NCBI RefSeq assembly: GCF_003324165.1
Contig: NW_025407835.1
Coordinates: 248,001 to 312,000, forward strand
Direction of reading: 5' to 3'
Length of the DNA stretch: 64,000 bases
DNA from: Naegleria lovaniensis
Taxonomy: Eukaryota > Heterolobosea > Eutetramitea > Acrasida > Naegleriidae
The position numbers were made by a program, and so were the translations under genes. Positions 3 to 34,202 of the stretch are shown here, piece after piece. Below the pieces are notes generated by a model. It was not told the DNA's origin. It worked only from the letters and a program-made list of their open reading frames with translations, and did no database searches. Within the stretch, counting starts at the first letter, position 1; every line of letters begins with the position of its first letter.

Positions 3-1103
3 GCTCTTCCAAAATATGTCAATGAGACGACTCGAACCTACGACCATCAACGATTGTTTGAAATTGTCAAGATTGCTACCAAGAATTTGAACAAGATCAT
101 TGACAAGAATTATTATCCAGTTGAGGAAGCCAAAAAGAGCAATATGAGACATCGTCCTATTGGTTTGGGAGTTCAAGGATTGGCTGATGCCTTTATCAAG
201 ATGCGTCTCCCATTTGAAAGTGAAGAAGCCAAGGTATTGAATCGAGAAATTTTCGAAACGATTTATTTTGCTGCATTGACTGCAAGTTGTGAAGTTGCCA
301 TGGCTGAGGGACCTTACGAGACGTATGCAGGAAGTCCAATGAGTAGAGGTATTTTCCAACATGAATTTTGGACCTCTCAAGGTGAGCCTTTCGAAGGAAA
401 AACCATCACAAGTGGAAGATGGGACTGGGAAGGTTTAAGACAACAAATTCTCAAGTTCGGAGTTCGTAACAGTTTGTTGGTGGCGCCAATGCCAACCGCT
501 TCCACCAGTCAAATTTTGGGCAATAACGAATGTTTTGAACCATATACTTCGAATGTGTATACGAGACGTGTTCTGAGTGGTGAATATCCAGTGATTAATA
601 GACATTTAGTGTCTGATTTGATTCAATTGGGAATGTGGAATCCAACGACTGTGAATCAAATTATTGCCAATAGAGGTTCTATTCAAAACATTGATGGAAT
701 TCCTGACGACATTAAGGAATTGTACAAGACTGTTTGGGAAATCAAACAAAAGAGTTTGTTAGATCTTGCTATTGAGAGAGCTCCATTCATTGATCAATCT
801 CAATCACTCAATGTCTTTATTGCAACTCCATCCATCTCGAAAATGTCTTCCATGCACTTTTATGCTTGGAGTAAGGGTTTAAAGACTGGCATGTATTATT
901 TGAGAACACAACCAGCTGCAGATGCCATTCAATTCACAGTGGATCCAGCCATGATGAAGCAAAACAGTAGTGTCTCGACTGCTGCTGATCAAGAGCAAGA
1001 AAAGCCAGCATCCTCCACTCAAGAACAAGTTATTGTGTGCCGAAGAAAGAGAGGACAACCAACCACTGGTGATGAAGAAGAATGTTTGGTGTGTGGTGCT
1101 TAA
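3..1103 (+). CDS. RNR1: Ribonucleoside-diphosphate reductase large subunit, C-terminal part (5' end outside window)
   Basis: Large (R1) subunit of class Ia ribonucleotide reductase, which reduces ribonucleoside diphosphates to deoxyribonucleotides in the cytosol. The frame is open from base 3, before any ATG, so the gene enters from the left; 366 residues are visible. Diagnostic blocks are [47 protein letters not shown] and TGMYYLRT, whose two tyrosines (codons 894-899) are the radical-relay pair of the family. The protein ends in CLVCGA, the C-terminal CxxC that re-reduces the active site. The catalytic cysteine/asparagine/glutamate loop lies upstream of the window. No intron is seen in this part. 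Its stop faces the glycerate kinase stop across about 180 bases of AT-rich 3' sequence. Confidence 0.97.
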
Positions 1104-1286
1104 TCGTTCAATTGGATTATTGGATCATTGGATGAATCGATAGGCTCACTAAATGGACCGTCTCAACCAACAGATCTCAATTTTTATCAGCTTGTGTACA
1201 TTTAGCTCACATTTACACTTTAAGTAGTGCATGGTGTGAGTGAAATAACTCTCTAAATTATTATCAGTAAATTTATATATATTTCC

Positions 1287-3000
1287 TTAGAATTGATTTG
1301 TTTGAGTTCGTTCCTTCACCCTGTCCACATGTTTGAAAATTAAAGGCAATTTTTCTTTCGTTAATTGGGCCAAACAAGAGAAGGTTTCTTTCATGGACTT
1401 TTCCATCGGGAATTGAGATGTCAAATCCAGCAATAAACAATTCTCATTCGGCACAGTCTCCTTCTTCTTTTGACCACAACAAATAATGCATGCCTTATTG
1501 TACTGTTGACAAAGTTTGGAAACCCATGAAACCACTTTTCCTCCTTCCGATTGATCGTCGTAACATCCCTCACCTGTGAACACAATATCAGCATCCGTGA
1601 TATGTTTCTCTAATTGACAACTCATTCCAATCATTTCAATTCCTTTTTTCAATTCTACTTTTCCGTGAAGAATTGAATAAAATCCACCACTGTATTGAGT
1701 GTCAAAGTCCCAAATGAATGATTATGTTATGTTCGCCAAGTACCAAGTATGTTACAGATGGTTAATCATTCAAAATATTTCACAACAAAAAGCCTTACCT
1801 TATTCCACCTGCTGCACCAGCTCCAGGCATGTCCGCAATCTCGACCCCAGTCTTGTCTCTCACTAATTGTGCAAATCGAATCATTCCCTTCTCAAGTATT
1901 TCACGATCTTGTGGAGATTTGACTCCTTTCTGCTTACTAAATGTAAATGTTGCTCCTCTCTCGCCTACCAACGGATTATTGACATCACATGCAATATCAA
2001 TGGTTAAATCTCTGTAGCGATAAGGTAATGCATTACGATCGAGTGTGAAATCTGCGAGATGAACTAAATGTTTTCCATAAAAAACAAACGAATTTTCGAG
2101 ATTATCTTGAAAATCAGTGTTGTTGTTGTCGTTCGAATTGTAATTATCAAGAAAAACAAAATCTTTGATACACCCAAGAGCACTCAAACATCCAATTCCT
2201 GCATCATTGGTACACGAGCCACCAATTCCAAGTAAAATGTGAATATTATCATTTTCATTGTGTTTCAATAAAATGTGTTTGATTAAGAGCCCTTTTTGTG
2301 TGAAGAACAATTTCCAAATAAATTTGCAAAATGTCAAAACATTGTGTCACACCGTTCATTACTGAGCTCTACCTACCTAATGGATATGTGGTTGTTTCAA
2401 AGGGATTTCTTTCTTCCGTTCGTAATTGTTCCAATCCACACACAGTAGCCATTTCCAATACATAGATGTGTTCTTGGGTATTCAATTCATTATCATGAAT
2501 ATGTTTTTTATAGTAATAAGGGGCTGGAACTAGCTCATGTCTTCGAGAATGCAACGGATGCCGAACAGGAAAGAATTCCAATTGATAGTCATTGGGATGA
2601 TTTTGCTTGATCGATTCTAAAAAACTAATAAAATTATTTTTCAGATCATCAATATTATTAAAATATATAAATAAAATCATTGTGGAATTGTATATTCCAA
2701 TAATTTTGAAATCATTGGGAAATGGTGCGATCAATTCGAGAAAATATTATTCCATCACACCAATTGACATAATAATTAATAATAAATTATTTAAAAAATG
2801 CAACAATCATCATCTCTAACAAAATATTCTTACCCTTCTCCTCCATCGGAAAGTGGAATATTCATGAATTGCGATTGAAATTGCTGTGATTGAGCTGCTC
2901 CTTGAAAAGCCAGAGCAATGGCTTCTCCACATTCTCTACTTTTTAGACTGTCTTTGAATTTATCAAAACACGTGAGAACTTTAAAACATCGGTGTTGCAT
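1287..3000 (-). CDS. GLYK: Glycerate kinase (GlxK/GarK-type, class II), four exons
   Basis: Phosphorylates D-glycerate with ATP, feeding serine or glycerate carbon into glycolysis. Exons on the minus strand are 3000-2834, 2744-2377, 2291-1799 and 1689-1287, which sum to 1431 bases (476 residues). The family signature is present in order: DKFKDSL near the start, SDGGEG at the end of exon 1, MATVCGLEQL and ERNPFETTTY in exon 2, GIGGSCTNDAGIG and PGAGAAGG in exon 3, and FTGEGCYDDQSEGGK in exon 4. Introns 2 and 3 are GT-AG. Intron 1 has a good GTAAGA donor, but protein continuity (SDGGEG then FLELIAPFP) puts the acceptor where there is no AG; see findings. The start is 40 bases from the divergent kinase gene. 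The identification is firm; the exon 2 boundary is not. Confidence 0.9.
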
Positions 3001-3040
3001 TGTATATTCAATTTTTTAACTATTTTTCCATTTAAAAAAT
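3001..3040. promoter_or_regulatory. Very short divergent intergenic spacer
   Basis: Only 40 bases, very A/T-rich, separate the glycerate kinase ATG (minus strand) from the first tandem kinase ATG (plus strand). Promoter elements for both must lie here or inside the neighbouring genes. No recognisable TATA or binding motif can be claimed. Confidence 0.4.
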
Positions 3041-4917
3041 ATGCGCCAAAAGTGCAACGATCGTTGCTTCTCTCCTTTTTCTTTTATTAAGGATATTGAG
3101 ACAAAGGAATATCTCTCTTTGGACCAAAAAATTGATCTTATTATTGAGACTCTAAGCAAGAATTACGAAAAGGAAAATTCTAACCACAAAATATCATACC
3201 CGACGTGGGTTAGAAAGGATAAAACCAAGATCCTTCTTAATGCTCTTAATATTTCTCCTTCTGAATCGTTGGAACTTTTTCCTGATTTTGAGGAACTGGA
3301 ACGATTTCAGTCTTGCTTGGGATATTTATGTAGTAGTTTTGAGAGAAATGATATTCAAGCATTAACTTTAAATTTACAGAATGCGGTACAGATGATGCAA
3401 CAATATTCGTTAGAGTGGAATGCATCGTCTGTTTTGTCATTAATTTCTTCCTTATGCCAAACAAAAAACATTCTAGCCTGTAATGGCGAAATTATGATAA
3501 CAGGGATTTATAACTCGTTATTCAACATGCTCTTTACGAAAAAGAAAGATCTTGTTCCTCATGGGTAAGTTGAAAGATATTTAAACCTTTGCTGATTCTG
3601 AAATGAAACATTTACAGAGGCAAAGTACTAGAGATACATTTAGAAAATGAATTGCCGTATTTTAAAGTGAAATGTGATTCTTTCATTACAGACAAAACTG
3701 CAACTGTTGTGTATCACATTAGAGAGGATAAAGATAGTGTTGACACGGAATGGGAAACTCTGTCTTCAGATGGATGGAAGTTGATACTCACAATGCGAGG
3801 ACTGTTGAACAGAAACATTCGACAATACAAGATGAGTAGAGATCAATTGAAAAAGCATAGTTTCGTATTAGGAATGATTACAAACAAGAAAATTATTCAC
3901 TGCTTTGTGTTGCAAGCGAAATTTGATGAAAACATGAATATTTCCTATCATTTAAGCAAGTATACGTTTGGTGTGGATACTTGTGATGATTTAATTCCAT
4001 TAGTAATGTTTCTTTGCCAATATATCCGAGACTACATTCCTGTGCGTACATGGCTGTCCAAAGAAAACGTGGAAGTGGGTCATACTTCGCTCAAGAGCCC
4101 TCAAAAGCTTGTGTCAGTTGCTTCTACTGTATTTAGCTCTACTTCTCGACACGCCTATCAATTAATACATGGAAAACCTGTCAGGAGAGTGCACGACTCA
4201 GGCAATGGCAAGTTATTAATTGCCAAAACAATCAGTGTATGGAAATTAACGGATTCCACAGAAAATTATATCTACCAAACCTTACTTCGAACAAATTACT
4301 GTCAATACCTTCCAAGTATTTTATCTTATCACAGTGACGCTGTTGAATTGGAACATTTGAGAGAAATTAATACTCACACATCTTGGGAAGAAAGTTCTAT
4401 TCTTGCATTACTGTCAGATGTGACAAGTGCATTGAGATTTCTTCATGAACACAATATTTTACACAGAGATGTAAAACCTACCAACATTTTACTTAGGGAA
4501 GGAGAAGGTGAATTTTTCTGCTTTGTACTTGCAGATTTCAATCTCTCATGCCATTTTCAAAGAATTCAACACCAAAACAAAGAGGTCTTGCTTGATTTGA
4601 ACAGTAACAAAATTATTAATGAGAAATGTGGAACTGGAGCGTTTTGGGCACCTGAAGTTGAGAATGGAGAGAGTTACAATGAAAAGATTGACATCTATTC
4701 TTTGGCTCTCACTGTCCTCTATTTGTTAAATCCTTCACTATTTCATGAAACAAGGCTGTTAACCAAAGATTACCATGGCATGCTTAACACTCTACAAATG
4801 AATATTGGGCTGCAACTTCTCTTAGGCGAAATGCTTGAGACAGAGCCTTCTAAGCGACCCTCTGCACATGAAATTGAGACTAGATTGTCCAGCCTCATGT
4901 CAGTGAACGATGAGTGA
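3041..4917 (+). CDS. Protein kinase-like protein, tandem copy 1 (DFN motif)
   Basis: Two exons, 3041-3564 and 3618-4917, joined by a 53-base GTAAGT...ACAG intron (607 residues). The C-terminal third is a eukaryotic protein kinase fold: a lysine strand LLIAKTISVWKL, the catalytic loop ILHRDVKPTN (HRD near residue 457), a metal-binding motif DFN near 481 in place of DFG, GTGAFWAPE as the APE block, and DIYSLALTVLYLL for helix F. The HRD aspartate, the loop asparagine and the DFN aspartate are kept, so activity is possible; the glycine-rich loop is not clear. The first 330 or so residues match nothing I recognise and are shared only with the neighbour (SPFSFIK..., LCQTKN.LACNGEI). It sits head-to-tail with a close paralogue. 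Substrate unknown. Confidence 0.85.
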
Positions 4918-5069: not shown

Positions 5070-6947
5070 ATGCATAAGAGACAACGACCACATTTTCAGG
5101 ACCTCTCTTCTCCTTTTTCCTTTATTAAGGCCATTGAGGATAAGGAATTGCTTTCTATGGACCAAAAAATTGGTCTTATCATCGATACACTGAGTCAGAG
5201 CTTTGATAAGTCCAATTTACCCAACATTTCATATCCTTCATGGGTAAAGAAAGATAAAACCAAGACTCTTCTTTACTCTTTGAATATCATTCCTTCGGGA
5301 TCGTTGGAATTTCTTCCAAAGACGGAGGAGATGAGGAGATATCAAACAAGAATCATGGATTTATGCACCTATTATGAAAGCAACGACATTAAGAAATTAA
5401 TGATGGAATTACCTGAAGCAGTGAACTTGTTTCAAGAATATTCACGAGTTTGGAACGAAACATCTATTTTATCATTAATATCTGCCTTATGCCAAACCAA
5501 AAACGTACTTGCATGTAACGGTGAAATTGTGATTACTGGGACATACAACTCGTTATTCAATACGTTGTTTAAAAAGAAAAATCTTGTTCCCCATGGGTAA
5601 GCTATTCTTCAATAATGGAGCATTTCACTAATCTGTTATTTAATCAAAAGAGACAAGATATTGGATATTCGTCTAGCAGCGGAGTTCCCTTACTTTAAGG
5701 TAAAATGTGATTCGTTCATGACAGACAACATAGAATCTGTTGTTTATCACATCAGAGAAGACAAAGACAGTGACGAAAGTGATTGGGAATCGACCTCTTC
5801 TGATGGATACAAGGTGATCGTAACAATGAGAGGGCTGTTAAGTGAAAACATTCGACAGTTCAGGATGAACAAAGATCAATTGCAGCGTTATTGCAAGATG
5901 ACAGGCATGATAACAAACAAAAAATTCATTCACTGCTTTGTTTTGGAAGCAAAATTTGATGAACACATGAATGTTTCTTACCATTTATTCAAATATGCGT
6001 TTGCTGTTAACTTACCTGATTTAATTAGATTGGTCATGTTTCTTTGTCTATATATCCGAGACTTCATTCCAGAGAGTGAAATTATGTCCACTTCTGATTA
6101 CGTTGAAGTGGAAATGTCACCATTCAAAGATCCACAAAGGATTATGGAAGTGGCATCCACCGTCCTTAGCTCTAAATCTCAAGAAGTGTACAAAATGATA
6201 CACGGAAAACCTGTAATGAGGATGCTTGACTCCAAACATAGCCAACTGTTTGTTATGAAAACTACAAGCGTTTACAAATTAACCGATTCTACAGAAAATT
6301 ATATCTATGAAACCTTACTTCGAACAAATTACTGTCAATACCTTCCAAGGGTTTTAACTTTCCATCATGACGCTGTCGAATTGGAGCATTTGAGAGAAAT
6401 TAATACTGTCACATCTTGGGAAGAAAGTTCTGTTCTTGCATTACTCTCAGATGTGACATGTGCATTGAGATTTCTTCATGAACACAATATTTTACACAGA
6501 GATGTAAAACCTACCAACATTTTTCTGCGAGATGGAGAAGGTGAATTTTTCTGCTTTGTGCTTGCAGACTTCAATCTCTCATGCCATTTTCAAAGAATTC
6601 AACACCAAAACAAAGAGGTCTTGCTTGATTTGAACAGTAACAAAATTATTAATGAGAAATGTGGAACTAAAGCGTTTTGGGCACCTGAGGTTGAGAATGA
6701 AGAGAATTATAATGAAAAGATTGACATCTATTCATTGGCTCTCACTGTCCTCTATCTGTTAAATCCTTCCCTTTTTAAAACTTGCTTGTTTACCAAAGAT
6801 TGGCTTGGAATGAGCACGAGCTTGAACATTAGTGCTGGACTGCAAGGTCTCTTAAGTGAAATGCTTGCCATCCAACCTTCTAAGCGACCCCCTGCACATG
6901 AAATCGAGAACAGATTGTCCAACCTCATGTCCGAGAGCAATGAATGA
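5070..6947 (+). CDS. Protein kinase-like protein, tandem copy 2 (DFN motif)
   Basis: Two exons, 5070-5596 and 5651-6947, with a 54-base intron at exactly the same codon (PHG) as the upstream paralogue. I chose the ATG at 5070 over the in-frame one at 5052 because it has the same aaaaatATG context as copy 1 and makes both proteins exactly 607 residues. The catalytic loop ILHRDVKPTN, ADFNLS and KAFWAPE are intact. A block of about 90 codons around the catalytic loop is nearly identical to copy 1 at DNA level, while the N-terminal half has diverged more, suggesting recent gene conversion or strong constraint on the kinase core. The gene ends in a short AT-rich 3' region. Function unknown. Confidence 0.85.
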
Positions 6948-15825: not shown

Positions 15826-17679
15826 ATGTCGCAACAACATGATCACACTATATCATCAGAATGGATGGATCATTCACTCACTACTCCATTATTGGTCCAA
15901 CTCCCACATGAAATGATGGAATTAATCTTTGATTATTTGAACATTTCCGAGGGTTGTAATACGATGAGACTCTTGAACCGAACCATTTCTTCTCAATTTT
16001 TACATTATTTCCGACGAATACTGAGAGAGAGATGGGAAGATGAGAATATGGTGAGTCTTTATCCTTTGAATGAACCTCCAGTCTCTCCCGAGATGATTTC
16101 TCAAACCGAGAAGAAATTTAAAATCATCATTCCGTTCGTGTTGAAGGAATTATTAATGATCACGAACGGAAGTAGAAAGCCAAATAGATTCCATCTATTA
16201 CCGATTGAGAATTGGTATGAAAGAGGTTATGGAGTGGTATTTGCTAAGGACTATGTCATTGTATCGGATGGAACTTCAAGTCATATCTTGGTTCATGACT
16301 ATGATGAGTTTTATTCATGGACCAATTTTTGGAATGTGTTGTTTCATTCAGATCTGAGTACGAGCTCGGTGGATGTTAAAAAGCTGCCTGAAAAGAAGTA
16401 TTTTGAATATAATGGCTTTGATTGGTATGACATGCGGGAAGTTCATTTGAAAACGATACCCAAGTTTTACTTGAATTTCTTGCAATGTATGGTAGATCCA
16501 AAACGTAGTGAACTGAGATATAATGCTCAAACAGTCATTGATTGTTTGAATTCTGAATTTTTACAAGATGAAAAATTTGCATGTCGGGTCGCTTCACTTT
16601 ACTACAAACTGGTTCGACATTTTCCTTCACACTTGTTGGATGATAAAAGTTATTGCAAAAAATTGGTCACTGTACAAGGAAAAGTCCTCAAGTATTGTCC
16701 AAAGTTTGCAATCGACAGAGAAATTGTATTGGCTGCTGTGAAAAGCAACGGATTTGCACTGAAATATGCACCTACATTTCAAAGCGATTCAGAAATAGTG
16801 TCTGTTGCGCTCAACACAAGCCCTCATGTTTTGCATCACGTCTCCAAATTGACACCAAACTACAAGCAATATGTTTTGGAGGCTTTGAGGAAGAACAAAT
16901 TCGACACGGTACCAAAATTTTTCACTGAACCAATGGCACAAAGTAAGGACTATGTGGAAGCACTCTTAGAAAAAAGTCCTAAATTGTTGAAGTTAATGCC
17001 AAAGGTTTGGTTTAACACTCAATTTTTTCTTAAATTGATGAAAAAGAATTCAAAATGTTGTAAATATATTTTGCAACAAACAACATCGCTCGATAAGAGA
17101 GTAATTAAGGCTGCACTACAATTGGAACCTGGTTCATTTATTTACCTTTCTGAGAAGCACCAACGTGATAGGGAGTTATTGAACTTGGCGTTTGGATGTA
17201 ATATTAGTATGAATTCAGAAAATAACACCATTTCAAAGGAAGGTTTGAAACAAATTTTGAAAGCTATTGAGAAAGCGCCGAAATTACTAAGAGTGGTCTG
17301 TTTCAAGCATGACTACTTGCCACTGCCCATGGAGGATCAAGAGCTAGTGATGGATTTCTTGCAACAAGCTTGTCAAAAGTCTCTTTCACAAAATGGTTCA
17401 CTGTTGCGCCACTGTCTTGGACATGACTCCTTATTAGACACAAACCAACAATTGCAATTGCTTGCAGCTGAGACAGCTTGTAGACAAAATCCGGAGTGTC
17501 TGCAACATGTTTATTGCGAATACACGGAGCTTTTTCCTCAGTTATTGGAACTTGAATCTACTGCACATTGCAAAGATGCACCCTACTTTGGGTACCACTA
17601 CGAACCAAAAGACAAGGCAGCTTTAATGAAAAACATACGAGCCACCCAAATAGCCATAATCAAGAGAAATAATCCATAA
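15826..17679 (+). CDS. F-box / SMI1-like / DUF4116-repeat protein
   Basis: Single-exon 617-residue protein with three parts. Residues 24-60 form an F-box-like unit (LPHEMMELIFDYLNI...LLNRTIS), suggesting a link to SCF ubiquitin ligases through Skp1. Residues about 83-175 resemble the SMI1/KNR4 (SUKH) fold: SPEMISQTEKKFKIIIP...ELLMITNG...HLLPIE. From about 210 to 540 it has DUF4116-type repeats (REIVLAAVKSNGFALKYAP, SEIVSVALNTSPHVLHHVS). The combination suggests a substrate adaptor, but the target is unknown. The start ATG is preceded by aaaaa. Its stop lies about 20 bases from the convergent peptidase gene. The SMI1-like call is the least certain part. Confidence 0.75.
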   Translation: MSQQHDHTISSEWMDHSLTTPLLVQLPHEMMELIFDYLNISEGCNTMRLLNRTISSQFLHYFRRILRERWEDENMVSLYPLNEPPVSPEMISQTEKKFKIIIPFVLKELLMITNGSRKPNRFHLLPIENWYERGYGVVFAKDYVIVSDGTSSHILVHDYDEFYSWTNFWNVLFHSDLSTSSVDVKKLPEKKYFEYNGFDWYDMREVHLKTIPKFYLNFLQCMVDPKRSELRYNAQTVIDCLNSEFLQDEKFACRVASLYYKLVRHFPSHLLDDKSYCKKLVTVQGKVLKYCPKFAIDREIVLAAVKSNGFALKYAPTFQSDSEIVSVALNTSPHVLHHVSKLTPNYKQYVLEALRKNKFDTVPKFFTEPMAQSKDYVEALLEKSPKLLKLMPKVWFNTQFFLKLMKKNSKCCKYILQQTTSLDKRVIKAALQLEPGSFIYLSEKHQRDRELLNLAFGCNISMNSENNTISKEGLKQILKAIEKAPKLLRVVCFKHDYLPLPMEDQELVMDFLQQACQKSLSQNGSLLRHCLGHDSLLDTNQQLQLLAAETACRQNPECLQHVYCEYTELFPQLLELESTAHCKDAPYFGYHYEPKDKAALMKNIRATQIAIIKRNNP

Positions 17680-25640: not shown

Positions 25641-27008
25641 ATGAAAAGAGTTTTCAAAGGGCTAATTCGTTGTTGTACTCGCTTGTCTTCACTGCAGTTC
25701 ATGCATTCTCGATTGTTAACTGAACGATATTTCAACACATGGCAATCTTTGTCCCGAAAGAAAAAAATTAGAACACATGAAGACTGGGAAAAAGATATCA
25801 TTCACCCACAAGGTTTTTACGATTTCGGAAGAAAGGAGACAACGCATGATAAAATATGGAGGGAGAGGAATGAGAAGGATTTACAACAAGCAATGGTAGA
25901 ACTGGATAAATATCCTGAAGAAGTTGAAAAAATTTCAAAAGAAATAGAAAAACATTTGAAAAGAAATTTGGGTCTTATTGGTGACAGAGATCTAACAGCG
26001 TTACTGTATTTAACGCTGCCGTTTATGAAGAGTTTTGTGGAGGAGACTCTTGGTTTGGTTGACCCTTACCCAATTTTTTACTGTTTGGAAAAAAAGGAAT
26101 TTATAACAATAATTGATATGGAGGAAGAGGGAAATGTAATACTGTTAAATAGTCACGAATTCGAACAGCCACATCTAGAAAAATTTGAAGTGGATGACCC
26201 TTCCAGGAAAATGATAGTATTCACAACCGCTGCATCGTGCTCCAAATGGATGGATCGCTTATTATCGAACAACAGAAAACACATATGTATTGACATTATG
26301 TGGAACCACAACGACCCCTTTTACGAACGTGCAAGACTGGTTGTGCTTTACAACGGATGGCTCATGTTAATTCTAAGGGTTCCCAAAACAAAAGGTCCAG
26401 ACCAAAAACTGTACGAGTTGATTATGGACCCCAAAATAATGAAGTTTGGGTTTGATGCACCGGCAAAGGCCGGAAAATTGTCACAATGGTTTGAATCATG
26501 CAACCTGAAAGGTATACAAGATGAAAGGAAACACTTTATCGTTGATGCAGACGAGTATAATTGGAAAAACTTTAGACTACTTACATTTGGGGTGCCACTA
26601 CACAGACGAGTGGACTGTTTTTTGAAGGAGCAGCCAGATTCCTTCTATCATTTTGGCAACCTTGACCCTAACACCAAGCAAGGTAGAACTCGTTTGGAGT
26701 ATGCTTCACACGGTGTGTTTACATGTTGGTACTTTGCAGAATACATGGATACAAGTGAAGAAAATAAGGACATTCACACTTGGGCAACCTCTCATCATCC
26801 AGAAGGAAAAACCCCAATTCTTCTTGAAGAACCTTCAGATGAAGAGTTTGAAAAATGTGAAAAGCTTGCAAAAAAGTATGACCGTGTAAAATTGTCGCTT
26901 GGCCCTCAATTGTTTTACAAACCTTCTGTAGTGAATGTCAAATACAAGGAAACAAAAAGGGAGGACTTTACGAAACTGATCATGGAATGGATTCAGAGTA
27001 AATTTTAG
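25641..27008 (+). CDS. Mitochondrial protein with degenerate 3'-5' exonuclease-like fold
   Basis: Single exon, 455 residues. The first 40 residues (MKRVFKGLIRCCTRLSS) are Arg-rich, without acidic residues, and end near RYF, as expected of a mitochondrial presequence. Residues about 215-290 read like a DEDD exonuclease core: ICIDIMWN for the DxE strand, RLVVLYNGWLMLILRVP for the second strand, LYELIMDPKIMKFGFD for the helix and D strand. The first motif has DIM instead of DxE, so catalysis is doubtful. The remainder is charged with no recognised domain. The fold assignment is inference from short motifs and needs a profile search. Confidence 0.65.
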   Translation: MKRVFKGLIRCCTRLSSLQFMHSRLLTERYFNTWQSLSRKKKIRTHEDWEKDIIHPQGFYDFGRKETTHDKIWRERNEKDLQQAMVELDKYPEEVEKISKEIEKHLKRNLGLIGDRDLTALLYLTLPFMKSFVEETLGLVDPYPIFYCLEKKEFITIIDMEEEGNVILLNSHEFEQPHLEKFEVDDPSRKMIVFTTAASCSKWMDRLLSNNRKHICIDIMWNHNDPFYERARLVVLYNGWLMLILRVPKTKGPDQKLYELIMDPKIMKFGFDAPAKAGKLSQWFESCNLKGIQDERKHFIVDADEYNWKNFRLLTFGVPLHRRVDCFLKEQPDSFYHFGNLDPNTKQGRTRLEYASHGVFTCWYFAEYMDTSEENKDIHTWATSHHPEGKTPILLEEPSDEEFEKCEKLAKKYDRVKLSLGPQLFYKPSVVNVKYKETKREDFTKLIMEWIQSKF

Positions 27009-27108: not shown

Positions 27109-30100
27109 ATGTCACGTGTCAGCTACAATCCTCAAGTGAAAAAAATGTTTTCTCACTCCATCTCTGCTTCCTCTCCTTCATCATTCCATGAGGCAACAGC
27201 ACGAGTTCTGCCCAACGAAAAAGCTCCAGTGATAGACAATGCTGATTGGATCCATGCTCAACCTCTCATCGGATCGTATGGACATCGTTCCAAACATACC
27301 TCCGTCTCATTCACAAATGCCAGAAATGAGCCATGTATTCTCATCTTTGGGGGACAATCCGATTCCACTCATTCGTCATCATCAACCAGTACCACTTCAA
27401 ATTCCAGTAATCATCATCTCTCTGGAAGCAACAACAACCATCATCATTCAGTGGGAGGTGGTGACGTATTCATGTATGTGATCAAACGATTGCAAGACAA
27501 TGGTGAATGGCACTGCTACTCTCCACCAGTGAAAAATCCTACCAATGCACCACCTCGAGTGAGAGGTCATTCGGCCGTTTACTTTGAAGGAAGAATGATT
27601 GTGTTTGGAGGAAAGAATAATTTCAGATATTTTGATCAACTTTTCGTAAGTAGTTGACGTCGACGACGAGTGAAAAAGTTTTTGTGTGAATATTGGTCTC
27701 ATTGGTGATGATTATGGCACGCATCTTCTTCGTCGCATTTGATCATTATAATGATGGACACGGCACCTGATCATGGTGGCCACATTGAATTTTCCATCGG
27801 GATAATTCTTTTGAAATTGTGTGAAATTGTGATGGAATTGGCCACTGACAATAATCCAATATCTAACACTCTTATTGATGTCCATTCCACCACTCGATGA
27901 TGATCATCTCGAATGTTTTACTGTATGTGCCATCCACATGAACGATTCCATATTTGGAATAGTCTCTAAACTGTTCCACTTGGGAATGGAGTCACATCAT
28001 TTCTCTTCAACGATTCAGTACGACACGATTCATCACGAATGGACAAAGTAATAAGAAAAATCGCTCAGCATCCTCCTCTCTTCACAACAACAGTACCACT
28101 CCACAGAATTCTTCGTCCTCCTCCTCTGTCGTAGGTCGTACCATTCGTGAACAAATTAGTTTCGAGTCCATGATCAAACTTCCATGTAAGAGAAGTAACC
28201 ATACAGCAGTGGTCCTTCCAAAATATCGTAAAATGATTGTCTATGGAGGACGATCGTATGGAGAGACACTTGGAGATTTGTGGGCCTTTGATTTGGAGGA
28301 ATATCAATGGGATAATATTCAAATGGATCCTCATAAATCGCTCATTCCCTCTGAACGTCATTCACACAGTGCCACAGCGTTGCAGGAAAATCCCAATGTC
28401 ATGATCATTTATGGAGGTAATAATGGTAGTTCACAATTGAATGATTTGTGGATGTTTGATTATTCGGCAACTGTTTTTACACCCATTACCATGTGGAATA
28501 GTGTATTAAGCAATCCTTCATTGTCATTCAAAACGAGCGATCCAGGTGCAACAAATGCCATTCAAGTTGCAAATTCAATACTCCTTGGAAAGAAGGCCTC
28601 CAATTCAGATTCGAAGAATTTATTGATACCCACTCCAAGAGAAAGTCATCAATTAATTTCTTTAGGAAAAGGTTACTTAATGGTTCATGGAGGTTATTCC
28701 AAGAAGAGGTTCATTAAGGATTTTAATATTATTGATCTTCAACGAATGGAATATATTGACTGCACTTCTATTCCAAGAAAGAAGATTCCATGTTCAAGAA
28801 AATGTCACACTCTCAATAACATTTCAGAGGAGTATATTAGCATGGTAGGAGGAGTCTCTAGAAAAAGAGGAAAACTCGATGATTTTAATTTAATTGACAA
28901 GGAAATGTTGAAAAGTTTCATTCTCACCGATGGAGACGCTTCTTTAGTTGAAGAATTGAAAACTGTTCTCGAAAAGAAGTATAACATTCATCTCGAATCT
29001 TCACCTGATGCTTCATCCATTAGAAACTCCATTTCAATCACCCATTTAGAAAGCAACAATCATGACAAACGAAAATCAGTCAGAATTTCTCAAAGTCTCA
29101 GCAAAGACTCTCTTTTAGAAATTGGTTCCATCTTGTTAACATTGAGAGAATACCACAAAGCCATATCCTATTTCACACTAGTTCTTCAAATCGATCCCAA
29201 CAACAAGATGGCTTTCGAAAAGAGAGGAATTTGTCACTTCATGACCGAAGACATTTTGGCGAGTATTCAAGATTTTTCTGAATGCAACTCACCTGAATCA
29301 CAAATTTTAAAGGCCTACGCTTTCTTACGAATTGGAAAATATCGAGAGGCCTCCAATGTCATGCACATGCTCAAAAATAGCTATTCAGGCTCACAATTAC
29401 CAGTACTCGTTGAAGTGATCAAACAATTATTGGACTCGTATGAAAGTTCAATAGAGAGCAAAAACAAGAGCTCTACGCAACGTGAGTTACGTGCCTCTCG
29501 AGCTTATTTTGCTACCAATATTGATGATTATGTTTTTGAGCCTCAATCGGGCCGATATGTGGACCTTGAAAGTGAAAACAAGCCTAGCGAAGAGGGTCAT
29601 GTGAATTTCTCGATTGCAGAGCCTTATTCTTTACTATTTATTGGACAGCATGAGTGCGGAATGACTTCATATTTGCAACAAATTAGGTCCATGTTCCGAC
29701 AAAGTATTAGCATCAAGGAAGCGAAAGTATTCAAACCGAAAATTCAAAATTATACCATTGGTTTGTATCATCAATGGATGAGTTTTAAAAAAGTTTTGGA
29801 AGCATTTGATAAGGACGCATGTCCCATTCAAGTATCACAAGATTTGGAAAAACTTTCGAACCAAGTTTTTGACTATTTGGAAATGAACAAATCCGACAAG
29901 GATGGATTATCCATTTATCCAATTGCAAAAGTTCAAAAATTAGTCATGCAATTGGGTTCCAATCGAGAATTTCAAAAGATTTGCTCCAACTTTGCATCTC
30001 TGTACGAAATATTGAAAACCAAATATTACTTTTGTTCACTCCAAGAAGAAATTCACAAACTCTTCCACAATGCCAATGTACCATAGTAAGTAGCACCATG

Positions 30101-31472
30101 ATTCAAAATTGTGTGACATTTCAATAATTTTTCACATTTTCCATTTCAATAACAGCTTCTTCAAGGAAACGAACAGAATTCTCTCCACAGACTATCTACC
30201 CACAGATATGGATATTATTTCTTTCCCAATCAAGTATCACTTTTGTCCTCTTAATCTCATTGCATGTGAAAAAAAGAGTTATGAAGAATCATTGGATTTG
30301 AATGCAACAAATTCTCCTCTCCCAGCAATGAATCATTCCGAAGAAAATTTAGTATCAACAGCAAGTAGCCCTTCTCCAACTCGTCTTGAAATGAATGACA
30401 CCACCACCATCAACACTAATGGTCACCCAACGAGAGATTTGATTTCATTCGATGACGACAAGATTCTCCCTTCCACTCAAAATGTGAAACAAGTCATTGG
30501 AGATTTCACAAAGACAATCTTTTCGAATATCATTGAACAACATCAAGACAATAACGATAACAACAGCGATAAGGATCGTAGTACTCATGTTCATCATGAT
30601 CATACAATTCAACCATTGGATCAAATGAGAGGAAGTGTCGTTGAAAGAAATGATCATTTCTTGGACTCGCACCAAGACATTCCATCTTGTTTCAAACCTC
30701 CATACAGTGATGACATGTTTATAGGAGATATTTCCATCTATAAGGATAGTATGGATAGTTTAGATTTAAATGTTGAACAATCTCCTCTTGAATTTATCTT
30801 TAAAAGAACACCTTATACTATCTTTTCAACGACAGCTTGCAGTGATGAAGAAAAAGTCACGAGTGCCATTCGAGAGTTGAGTATTGATTCCATTGCTGTC
30901 ATCACCTCATTACATGATGTGGATCGAAAAGTACAAAGCTCTCATCAGCAAATTCCGGTTTATTCCTTTATGAATGGTCAGGTGATGGCCGATGGAAAAT
31001 CAGCCTCTTCTATTGTGAACACTCTACGAATGTGTGAAAAGTTACTGAATCAAGAAGCATTTGGAGACACACAAATTATTTTCATATTCACTCATCATGA
31101 TGTATTTGTAAGTTTTTTTAATGATTTTTACATTTTTTTTTAATCAACCCTTATTCAATAATTGTGACATGAATGATTGGATGAAAAAACACATCTATTT
31201 TCATATGATAGGTTCGAAAGGCTGCACAAGATCCAAATCTTCTCAAAAACGTGTTCCCTACTTATCAAGCAAGTACCAAAAAGTCACCTCAAAAGTACCT
31301 TGAGGAAATGTTCGAAATATTCAATGACAAGTATCGAAAGAGAAGAAGATTTCACTTCTCATTCGTGAACACCCTTGATAAGGATGATGTCAAACGTTCA
31401 TTTAAAACCATTCACGAAATTGTTCATAGTGTTGAATTGAAGAGACAATTAGAAACATACAAGATGTTGTAA
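27109..31472 (+). CDS. Kelch-TPR-G-protein alpha-like fusion with altered GTPase motifs
   Basis: Four exons: 27109-27645, 27963-30085, 30156-31107 and 31212-31472; all junctions GT-AG, 1290 residues. Residues about 60-500 hold kelch blades (CILIFGGQSD, GRMIVFGGKN, KMIVYGGRSYGETLGDLWAF, VMIIYGGNNGSSQLNDLWMF, YLMVHGGYS). Residues 560-690 are TPR-like (LLEIGSILLTLREYHKAISYF, LKAYAFLRIGKYREA). From about 735 it matches a G-alpha subunit: SLLFIGQHECGMTSYLQQIR at the P-loop, ETNRILSTDYLPTDMDII (the DY.P...D block before switch I), IIFIFTHHDVF at the NKKD strand, VFPTYQAS, then NTLDKDDVKRSFKTIHEIV at the C-terminal helix. The nucleotide-contact residues are replaced, so it is probably a pseudo-GTPase. 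An Asn/His/Ser-rich insert replaces switch II. Confidence 0.85.
27646..27962 (+). other. Long intron within the kelch domain
   Basis: A 317-base intron between kelch blocks FDQLF and SLNCSTWEW (GTAAGT donor, GGAATAG acceptor). It is rich in gatgat/atcatt triplets, and no exon is seen inside it. Confidence 0.65.
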
Positions 31473-31686: not shown

Positions 31687-33377
31687 TTAAAAAGACTCAA
31701 AAATACTATTTACATTAGCTCCATCATCAATATCATCCATACATGGAGAGGAGGTGTTCTCAACGAGCAAATTCTCAAAATTAGCACCTCCTCCAACGAC
31801 AACATTCATCATCAAGAGAGAATTCTGGAGGAGATTCATTTGGATTGGATTAAGGTGGAAGTGTTGCTGTTGCTGATCCGAATGAGGCAAATGGAGAGCA
31901 GGAGGTATGTACAAGGCAGGGGTGGTGGTGGAACAATAAAAGTTGGAAGCAGCAGAAGAGGCAAATGGAGAAGGAAGAATGGTACAAAATTGTTGTGTTG
32001 AGGCTTGATGATTTGGAATAAAAACACCATCAGCATCATCGTGGTTGGTAAAATCCGAAATTAATTGGGTCATCTTCTCGTCATCAGCATCATCAGCACT
32101 CAATGATGGAGAGAATTCATCGGCAGACGAATCAGACTCGGACAAGCCACTGGTACACGTGCTGGGACTCACACAATAACCTGCTGCCGTATTGGAAAAG
32201 ACAACATAATCATCATGAGCCTCATGATGTTGTGGAGGAGATGGAATGACCACGAACATTCCTTGTTCAAAGGCTGTATGGAAGGGATGAGCAGGAAGGA
32301 CAACCGTTGAGGTCGATGTTGTTGTTGAGTGATTATTATTGCATCCATTAGTGGTCATTTCATAGTTCAGTATTTCTTGTTGCGACTCGGCAACGACTTC
32401 TTGTGAGGAAGAGTATGGAGAAGATAGATTGGAAGAAGACAAAGAAGCAGGAGAAAACGCATCAGAATTACCCACTACAGATGGATCCATTGTGGACGTA
32501 CTCATTGAACATCCACCACTATTGGACAACAAATCTGAAAAGTTGGTAAAGAGTGAGGTCAAGAAGAGCAAGTGATGATTATTCGCCATACTGCTACTAC
32601 TCGTCGTCGAGCTCTCTTGCTTCTCACTCGACAACAAATTGGTGGCGTTGTGAATCACGGTTCGGATCAAGTTTCGTTCCTTCTCTGAAAAGTTCTTGAC
32701 AGCTGCTGAACGATCCTTTTCATCATTGTTGGCACTCGCTGTCACTAACAAGTGAATGAGTCGAATGGTCTCTGAAACATCATGGTGTGAAATGAGCTTT
32801 TCAAAGAATTCATTCGGTATTTTCTTGAGGTTGGATACAATTTGATCGTTTGATAAGGCATTGTAAATTTCATTGGTTTTTCTAAAGATGAATTCACGAA
32901 TTGACACAAATGAATATTAAAGACGCACACAAAAACTATTAAGACTTACTTGGAAGGATAAGGTTTCAAACTCTTTCTCTTTGCTCTGGGTTTTGGAAAC
33001 TCTTCACCATTCTTCTTCATCTTTTCAAAGTGCTTTTGAGCGTGTGACCGAATTTGCTTTCTCGTTTTCGTTCCAATGAAATCTTCAACCTTCTTCCAAT
33101 CTCTGCCATGAATACGAATAGCTTCGAGGAACTTTTCGTGCTCGTCATCGCTCCATTTCTCTCTCTTTTGTTGAATGGTATATTCTTTTCGTTGCTTTGG
33201 AAGGACTTGAGAGAGAGTGGCCTCAAGAGGTTGTGTGAGAGTGATGGAAGGAGGTGGAGAAGAGGGTGAGGATGAATTCTTTTTTGTAATCTTCTTGATA
33301 GTGGCACCATCACACGAAGAGCCCGTATTAGACTTTCTCCTCGCAGATCCAGCAGTAGTGGTTGACGATGAGACCAT
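31687..33377 (-). CDS. SHAQKYF-type single-Myb transcription factor
   Basis: Exons 33377-32950 and 32881-31687 (540 residues) with a GTAAGT...TTTAG intron. The Myb repeat is at about residues 73-120: [21 protein letters not shown] followed by the third helix [23 protein letters not shown] is the signature of the single-repeat group best known in plants (CCA1/REVEILLE) and also present in amoebae. A basic stretch [12 protein letters not shown] follows and is a likely nuclear signal. The C-terminal 400 residues are low-complexity with Ser, Asn, His and acidic runs, a likely activation region. Expected to bind DNA through the major groove; targets unknown. Confidence 0.9.
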
Positions 33378-34202
33378 AATTTGTGTGTTACTTGTGATTC
33401 GATGAGGTGAGTTGAGTGATGATTGGCAATAATATATTTACACAGTGAGCTCTTATGAAGATGCTCTCAGAGTTTAGGACGACAGAATTGGAGTTGTTGT
33501 GATGGAGAAGTCGGGTCGGCTCGGGACTCTGAGGAGATGAGGGTGTGGTTGTTGTGGTTTCTTTTTTACTGGTAGTGATGCTGTGGTAGGACCAACGTAA
33601 TCACCAAACGCTCCAAATTTCAAAGTTCGGAGTTTCAACTCCGTGACTCGTGAGGTTTGCATTTGTTCGAATCGCCTTCTAAAAACTCAAATTTAGTTTT
33701 ATTCAAGGTTACCAAGTGTTAATTGCAATAGAACCTTCTTGACGAGTAATTCCTTATGATGTGGTGTTTTGGAATGAACGATTGATATTTCACATGTGAT
33801 TCGTTGTTGTTTCACTTGAGCATGCTCGCAAAAATCTCATTTCGGGGAACCTCAAGTTGCCTCTCCGCGGCAGCACAATCTTTTGTAATAATCTCATCAA
33901 GAAATATACGAGCAAGAAGATTCTCTTTTGAACCTGTTTCTTTCTTTGAGTGCGTTCCTTTACAGAAACAAAAAAATGTGTTTGGCTTTCTGAGCAGTGA
34001 AAATTTTGTCTTTCGGAAATCAAAGCATTGAATGTTCTTATGAAAATAGAGAAAAAGAACAGGTCCCTACCACCAATTTTTGTTTTTTACGTATTTATTA
34101 TCTGATCTAATATATATATACTTTTATTGAACAGACATTGCAAAAGAGAGCAAGGAATTTTTTCGCGGATTCGTGTAAATATTAACGAGAGAGAGAGAAA
34201 CG
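33378..34202. other. Long intergenic region with two weak small frames
   Basis: About 825 bases between the divergent Myb and folliculin-interacting-protein genes. A 62-codon minus-strand frame with ATG (33662-33474) and a plus-strand frame from ATG 33822 to 34031 (about 69 codons, start MLAKISFRGTSS, Arg/Ser-rich like a targeting peptide) are present but match nothing known. Near 33625-33640 there is a perfect inverted repeat ggagtt-tc-aactcc. An AT-repeat (atatatatata) lies near 34110. This probably holds both promoters. Confidence 0.4.

Follow-up and report, generated by a model that had tools for sequence, protein, structure and literature searches.

We identified a gene of Naegleria lovaniensis in which a kelch region, a tetratricopeptide repeat (TPR)-like region, and a domain derived from a G-protein α subunit (Gα) are joined in one continuous frame, and the nucleotide-contact motifs of the Gα-derived domain are all altered or unrecognizable. 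The gene lies on the plus strand at positions 27109-31472 of a 64,000-nucleotide stretch (the window; positions 248001-312000 of contig NW_025407835.1, C15 in our searches), and all positions below are those of the window unless a locus is named. N. lovaniensis is a nonpathogenic relative of N. fowleri, whose Gγ gene, as given in PMC9283941, aligns with the present genome at 96% over 231 of 237 bases. We consider it probable, although well short of assured, that the product is a single-gene kelch-TPR-pseudo-Gα protein that serves as a constitutive, nucleotide-independent docking adaptor.

The gene has four exons and three introns and encodes 1,290 amino acids. Its spliced frame of 3,873 nucleotides comprises exactly 1,291 codons including the stop, as the first-pass annotation of this DNA had read it, with no internal stop codon and with GT-AG introns throughout (GTAAGT donors, AG acceptors). 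Exon 1 (27109-27645, residues 1-179) contains the first two kelch GG motifs and is followed by an intron of 317 bp (27646-27962, GTAAGT...TAG). Exon 2 (27963-30085, residues 180-886 plus two bases) is a single open frame holding the remaining kelch motifs, the TPR-like region, and the P-loop half of the Gα-like domain. After a 70-bp intron (30086-30155), exon 3 (30156-31107, ending at residue 1204) carries the DYLPTDMD/switch I region, a low-complexity insert, and β2 to β5; after a 104-bp intron (31108-31211), exon 4 (31212-31472, residues 1205-1290 and the stop) supplies β6 and the C-terminal helix. Homology spans all three splice junctions, with the best Kelch_1 stretch (residues 152-190) lying over 179/180 and the Gα profile alignment continuing over 886/888 and 1204/1205. 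Codon log-odds, trained on the other long frames of the window, rank the proposed frame highest for every exon (0.093, 0.183, 0.228, and 0.227 for exons 1 to 4, exon 1 being the lowest). The wrong exon frames all score negative except for one frame of exon 1 (0.008), and the introns score negative in all three forward frames. The window has a G+C content of 36.8%, and at the local base composition, the probability that an open frame of 707 codons, as in exon 2, arises by chance is about 2e-22. Because this one exon contains kelch, TPR, and the P-loop half together, the fusion is independent of any splicing guess. Two genes joined by a gene-model or assembly error would be an extremely improbable explanation: the assembly does seem to carry duplicated contigs elsewhere, but kelch, TPR, and the P-loop half share the 707-codon exon, homology crosses every junction, and our search of the genome (30.69 Mb in 97 contigs) found no second copy of the gene.

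The Gα-derived domain is recognized in the spliced protein by the Pfam Gα profile PF00503, which scores 86.6 bits against a cut-off of 48.8 (E value, 2.2e-24). Searched exon by exon, the matches reach 25.8 and 22.5 bits, under the cut-off, and the whole protein alone passes. The first-pass annotation had described a Gα match with its elements in order and had allowed that a profile search might find no such match; the search returned PF00503 above its cut-off, and the N and C halves are collinear with the family. In the PDB, the best sequence match of the Gα part is Gαo (1.5e-6), and Gαo and Gαi rank at the top for the C part. A search of the genome for the Gα family gave 101 exon-level matches, which merge into 58 places; among these are Arf-like small GTPases and duplicated parts of the assembly (C51/C95 and C22/C37), and the total is not a gene count. 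We fetched 36 loci (L029 to L064) and drew up a table of 38 rows, not counting the window gene; L051 and L053 match Arf best in Pfam, and without these two, 36 Gα-like rows remain. Profiles built from the other Gα-like genes of the genome match the N half with 33.1 bits (27 rows) and the C half with 50.3 bits (32 rows); in either case, none of 1,000 shuffles did as well. Comparison with single relatives is weaker (best values, 3.3e-5 for the N half and 2.2e-8 for the C half), and the middle of the domain has one match at an E value of ≤1 (0.089), to a frame without another Gα match. Neither Roc nor COR, of the Roco/LRRK2 type, is among the 23 Pfam families matched in the protein at an E value of ≤1, and a search of viral contigs with exon 2, which reaches close relatives only, gave one pattern match and no relative.

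The motifs by which Gα subunits contact nucleotide depart from the family one after another. At the P-loop position, GxxxxGK[ST] is replaced by GQHECGMTS (29643-29669, residues 740-748), with Met in place of Lys. The segment DYLPTDMDIISFPIKYH (30190-30240, residues 899-915) consists of a conserved block followed by switch I, where Pro stands for the catalytic Arg (residue 911) and Tyr for the Mg-binding Thr (residue 914), the Tyr reading coming from a manual extension of the alignment. The low-complexity insert of about 176 residues (30250-30777, approximately residues 919-1094) separates switch I from β2 and has no Gα match besides one chance-level stretch (-2.5 bits). DVGGQ is absent from all 1,290 residues. 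Because the stretch from β2 through switch II to β4 is unrecognizable by profile, it was placed by hand: β2-β3 and the DVGGQ position fall at 30787-30840, with STTAC at residues 1111-1115, an alignment unsupported by score. Ungapped comparison of the switch II region with the consensus gave no signal (256 of 500 shuffles were as good), and of seven offsets set by hand, none scores above -5. The NKxD/TKxD specificity motif reads THHD (31090-31101, residues 1199-1202), with His for Lys, and the TCAT/TCAx loop reads SFVNT (31359-31373, residues 1254-1258), a position at which several relatives depart too (VNAL, VNLV, and VNTL). There is no free N-terminal αN helix with Gly2; the protein starts MSRVS, and some 730 residues of kelch and TPR precede the P-loop. 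The sequence and the alignments agree with the motif readings that had been given for this gene before (GQHECGMTS, FPIKYH, THHD, FVNTLD, and no DVGGQ).

G proteins that lack the P-loop Lys, the Mg-binding Thr, DxxG, and the NKxD Lys are not expected to bind GTP tightly or to switch, and with these losses, the domain should do neither. An unlikely alternative is a divergent G domain with altered nucleotide binding, possibly slow or permanently loaded. The NKxD Asp and the Gly preceding the P-loop Lys are still present, and passages of PMC10731463 describe septins that stay permanently GTP bound after the loss of hydrolysis, some with nonconservative substitutions in the pocket. Against this stand the combination of Lys to Met in the P-loop, Lys to His in NKxD, Arg to Pro in switch I, and an unrecognizable switch II, as well as the retention of the NKxD/TKxD Lys in 34 of the 36 other Gα-like rows. 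The catalytic Gln is shown in 19 of those rows, or 20 with L040, in which the end of an exon interrupts the DVGGQ motif; unaligned columns were counted as not shown, and some of the 19 Gln residues sit in an altered motif (L047 and L048).

We scored each position of the domain against a profile built from the fetched relatives with the window gene left out, and the medians of the other rows are given in parentheses. Three blocks stay near the family level, namely, αE-αF/DYxPT at 1.39 bits per position (1.51), β5 at 1.40 (1.81), and NKxD-αG at 1.11 (1.43), while the largest drops below it are in β1/P-loop at 0.71 (1.84) and α3 at 0.42 (1.39). A decaying Gα remnant, the nonfunctional tail of a working kelch-TPR protein, would fit the low-complexity insert, a switch II beyond recognition, and the length of the gene's branch in a tree of Gα-like sequences (33 sequences, 319 columns), which at 2.25 is the second longest of the 33 tips. 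We nevertheless regard decay as rather unlikely, since the frame is unbroken through three introns, the codon bias of the Gα part in exons 3 and 4 is no weaker than that of the other parts, and some blocks of the fold core are retained. The tree also groups the gene with L052, L062, L058, L059, L048, and L038; support is low (42) and the branches are long, so we draw no relationship from this grouping.

The kelch region (27268-28925, a span that includes intron 1; approximately residues 54-500) matches PF24681 with 143.6 bits against a cut-off of 50 (E value, 7.2e-42). It contains six GG motifs, at residues 81, 167, 274, 330, 422, and 475, where five blades had been counted earlier; a seventh GG, at residue 116, sits within a low-complexity stretch. 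The TPR-like helical region (29091-29531, approximately residues 556-702) resembles designed and natural TPR chains in the PDB, the best being designed TPR proteins, with a score summed over repeats. For the TPR-like repeats of the first-pass annotation, the TPR_8 match over this short stretch is borderline, at 24.9 bits (1.9e-5) in the protein and 26.5 bits in the genome search around a cut-off of 25.7. NCBIfam matches in the first 886 residues are all far under cut-off and mostly of TPR type. Taken with the intact frame and the shared exon 2, the profile matches bear out the claim that kelch, TPR-like, and Gα-derived parts belong to one gene.

The solved chain nearest in sequence to the kelch part is LZTR1 (9mey, 2.1e-12), and LZTR1 binds Ras-family GTPases. 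This top match would suit a tethered G-protein mimic, in which the kelch propeller replaces Gβ or binds a real GTPase beside the pseudo-Gα, as would the proposal, in the title of Harashima and Heitman (2002), that yeast kelch proteins are Gβ mimics for Gpa2. The kelch matches are generic, though, and six of the seven other kelch frames of the genome outscore this one on PF24681; we consider a mimic very unlikely. A bolder picture, which we think quite unlikely, combines two proposals: that the protein is a covalent, nucleotide-free stand-in for a G-protein complex, its kelch region serving as a Gβ-like or GTPase-binding part tied to the pseudo-Gα in a permanently "set" signaling platform of heterolobosean amoebae, and that it belongs to a larger group of dead Gα folds put to new use as docking modules.

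We return here to the docking adaptor. With nucleotide contacts lost and yet an open, codon-biased frame, a protein-binding module is the best explanation of the Gα part, and kelch and TPR are themselves kinds of module that bind proteins. The pseudo-Gα domain would retain the fold core and act as a fixed, nucleotide-independent docking surface, the kelch propeller and the TPR helices would hold other partners, and the whole protein would be a constitutive adaptor, which is the simplest mechanism. Plant XLG proteins, which are Gα relatives, offer a precedent for such use of the fold, as they bind Gβγ and RGS independently of nucleotide according to a passage of PMC8584482. Septins offer one for G domains that lose activity while keeping an assembly role, a loss that excerpts of PMC10731463 describe as repeated in some of them. 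What the pseudo-Gα face would bind is a guess: the target could be a regulator, effector, or receptor of G proteins, or another part of the protein itself.

Several observations weigh against this reading. The profile fails to recognize the β2-switch II-β4 stretch (1.5 bits; 18 of 1,000 shuffles were as good). The helical domain at 0.26 bits per position (0.83) and α4 at 0.26 (0.92) have the lowest absolute values of the domain, and the usually partner-facing α3, at the value given above, and α5 at 0.55 (0.99) are poorly kept. A single-sequence AlphaFold prediction of exon 2 alone gave an unusable model, with a mean predicted local distance difference test score of 35.7. In ordinary Gα subunits, αN, switch II, and α3 are the elements that meet Gβγ, RGS, and effectors. 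With partner-facing elements lost or drifted, docking on the usual Gα partners is less well supported, and from the sequence, such binding appears less likely than the first-pass annotation implied.

Degeneration alone does not set the gene apart from its relatives in the genome. The switch II motif reads DPNQA in L029b, DPNEQ in L048, and ETLGW in L062, the NKxD position reads THVD in L052, and L058 and L059 have no aligned switch II. Several relatives are thus degenerate too, and this gene is not alone in having a dead Gα. L048, L052, L058, L059, L062, and the second gene of L029 all show motif losses, with a switch II that is altered or not aligned, and no match to kelch or TPR_8 lies within 8 kb of any of them. 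More broadly, neither kelch (PF24681) nor TPR_8 was detected within 8 kb of any of the other 57 Gα places. Of the 119 kelch and 67 TPR_8 matches in the genome, all but those of the window gene are more than 8 kb away from a Gα match, the closest being 10.5 kb away for kelch and 9.0 kb away for TPR, both on the opposite strand. These searches used one profile each with the best candidates scored, and more divergent pairs could escape them. Within this genome and the two profiles searched, the kelch/TPR partner is what sets this Gα apart.

Other unusual arrangements appeared among the relatives, 20 of whose long frames were scanned with Pfam, each protein being represented by a single open frame. 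A plus-strand frame at L054:2600-3499 combines a Gα C-terminal stretch (residues 12-123) with an F-box (residues 210-256) and constitutes a second unusual Gα fusion. The degenerate Gα-like frame at L062:85-1497 (minus strand) matches RAD51D_N over residues 396-432 with 28.4 bits (cut-off, 27.3; 1.9e-6), overlapping the Gα end. On the minus strand of L051, a 782-residue frame (950-3295) matches BTB weakly at residues 225-279 and contains an Arf GTPase domain toward the C terminus. The 978-residue frame at L049:1614-4547 (minus strand) matches Gα over residues 443-943 (44.7 bits, below the cut-off) and Arf weakly over residues 233-281; perhaps it carries two G domains in one protein. L055 holds two adjacent Gα-like frames on the plus strand (2-1798 and 2794-3648). 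This pair is repeated on C95 with identical scores, and C22 and C37 are alike, so that the assembly seems to contain duplicated contigs.

Expanded and deviating Gα families have been reported in Naegleria. In the passages concerned, the review PMC8584482, citing Anantharaman et al. (2011), credits Naegleria gruberi with 44 Gα subunits, perhaps the most, and notes that catalytic motifs deviate in some Naegleria Gα proteins; a passage of PMC9283941 gives thirteen Gα for Naegleria fowleri. Degenerate Naegleria Gα proteins are thus a known class, and given these deviating proteins in print and the further degenerate relatives in the genome, the earlier suggestion of an undescribed system is not supported in that form. 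The word "kelch" is absent from the main texts of PMC9283941, PMC6125883, and PMC11702301. Among the matches listed in our searches of open-licence papers, the kelch-TPR-Gα architecture was not found, which does not by itself show its absence from print. An in-frame Gα fold without nucleotide motifs, behind two binding modules, would be a clean system for the function of a Gα surface without a switch. Dead kinases have taught much about catalysis-free signaling, and dead Gα subunits have been less studied.

Around the gene, a plus-strand frame of 455 residues (25641-27005) has its stop 100 bases before the gene's start codon and has no Pfam match at 0.001. Downstream, on the opposite strand, 32946-33437 encodes a Myb-like DNA-binding protein. 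Elsewhere on the plus strand of the window are two neighboring similar frames (3607-4917 and 5616-6947), the first of which matches a protein kinase domain, and a 617-residue protein (15826-17676) that matches DUF4116 and, weakly, SMI1/KNR4. Scanning the whole window for Rfam families and tRNAs gave no match.

Four known systems invite comparison. LZTR1 and related kelch adaptors share with this protein the nearest solved kelch sequence. LZTR1 has BTB and a separate GTPase partner, whereas BTB is not among the Pfam matches of the Naegleria protein. Septin pseudoGTPases would resemble it in having lost the activity of a G domain, and they keep an assembly role according to excerpts of PMC10731463, but they belong to another GTPase family. 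Plant XLG proteins likewise extend a Gα-like domain at its N terminus, and a nucleotide-independent function is reported for them in a passage of PMC8584482. The extension here is kelch-TPR, and the likeness implies neither descent from XLG nor XLG-like binding. The fourth comparison is with the Gα subunits themselves (PF00503), including those of the Naegleria expansion, with which the protein shares a Gα domain that is collinear over its N and C halves; it differs from them in its altered GTPase motifs, in a large insert after switch I, in having no free αN or myristoylation start, and in the kelch-TPR part that stands in front.

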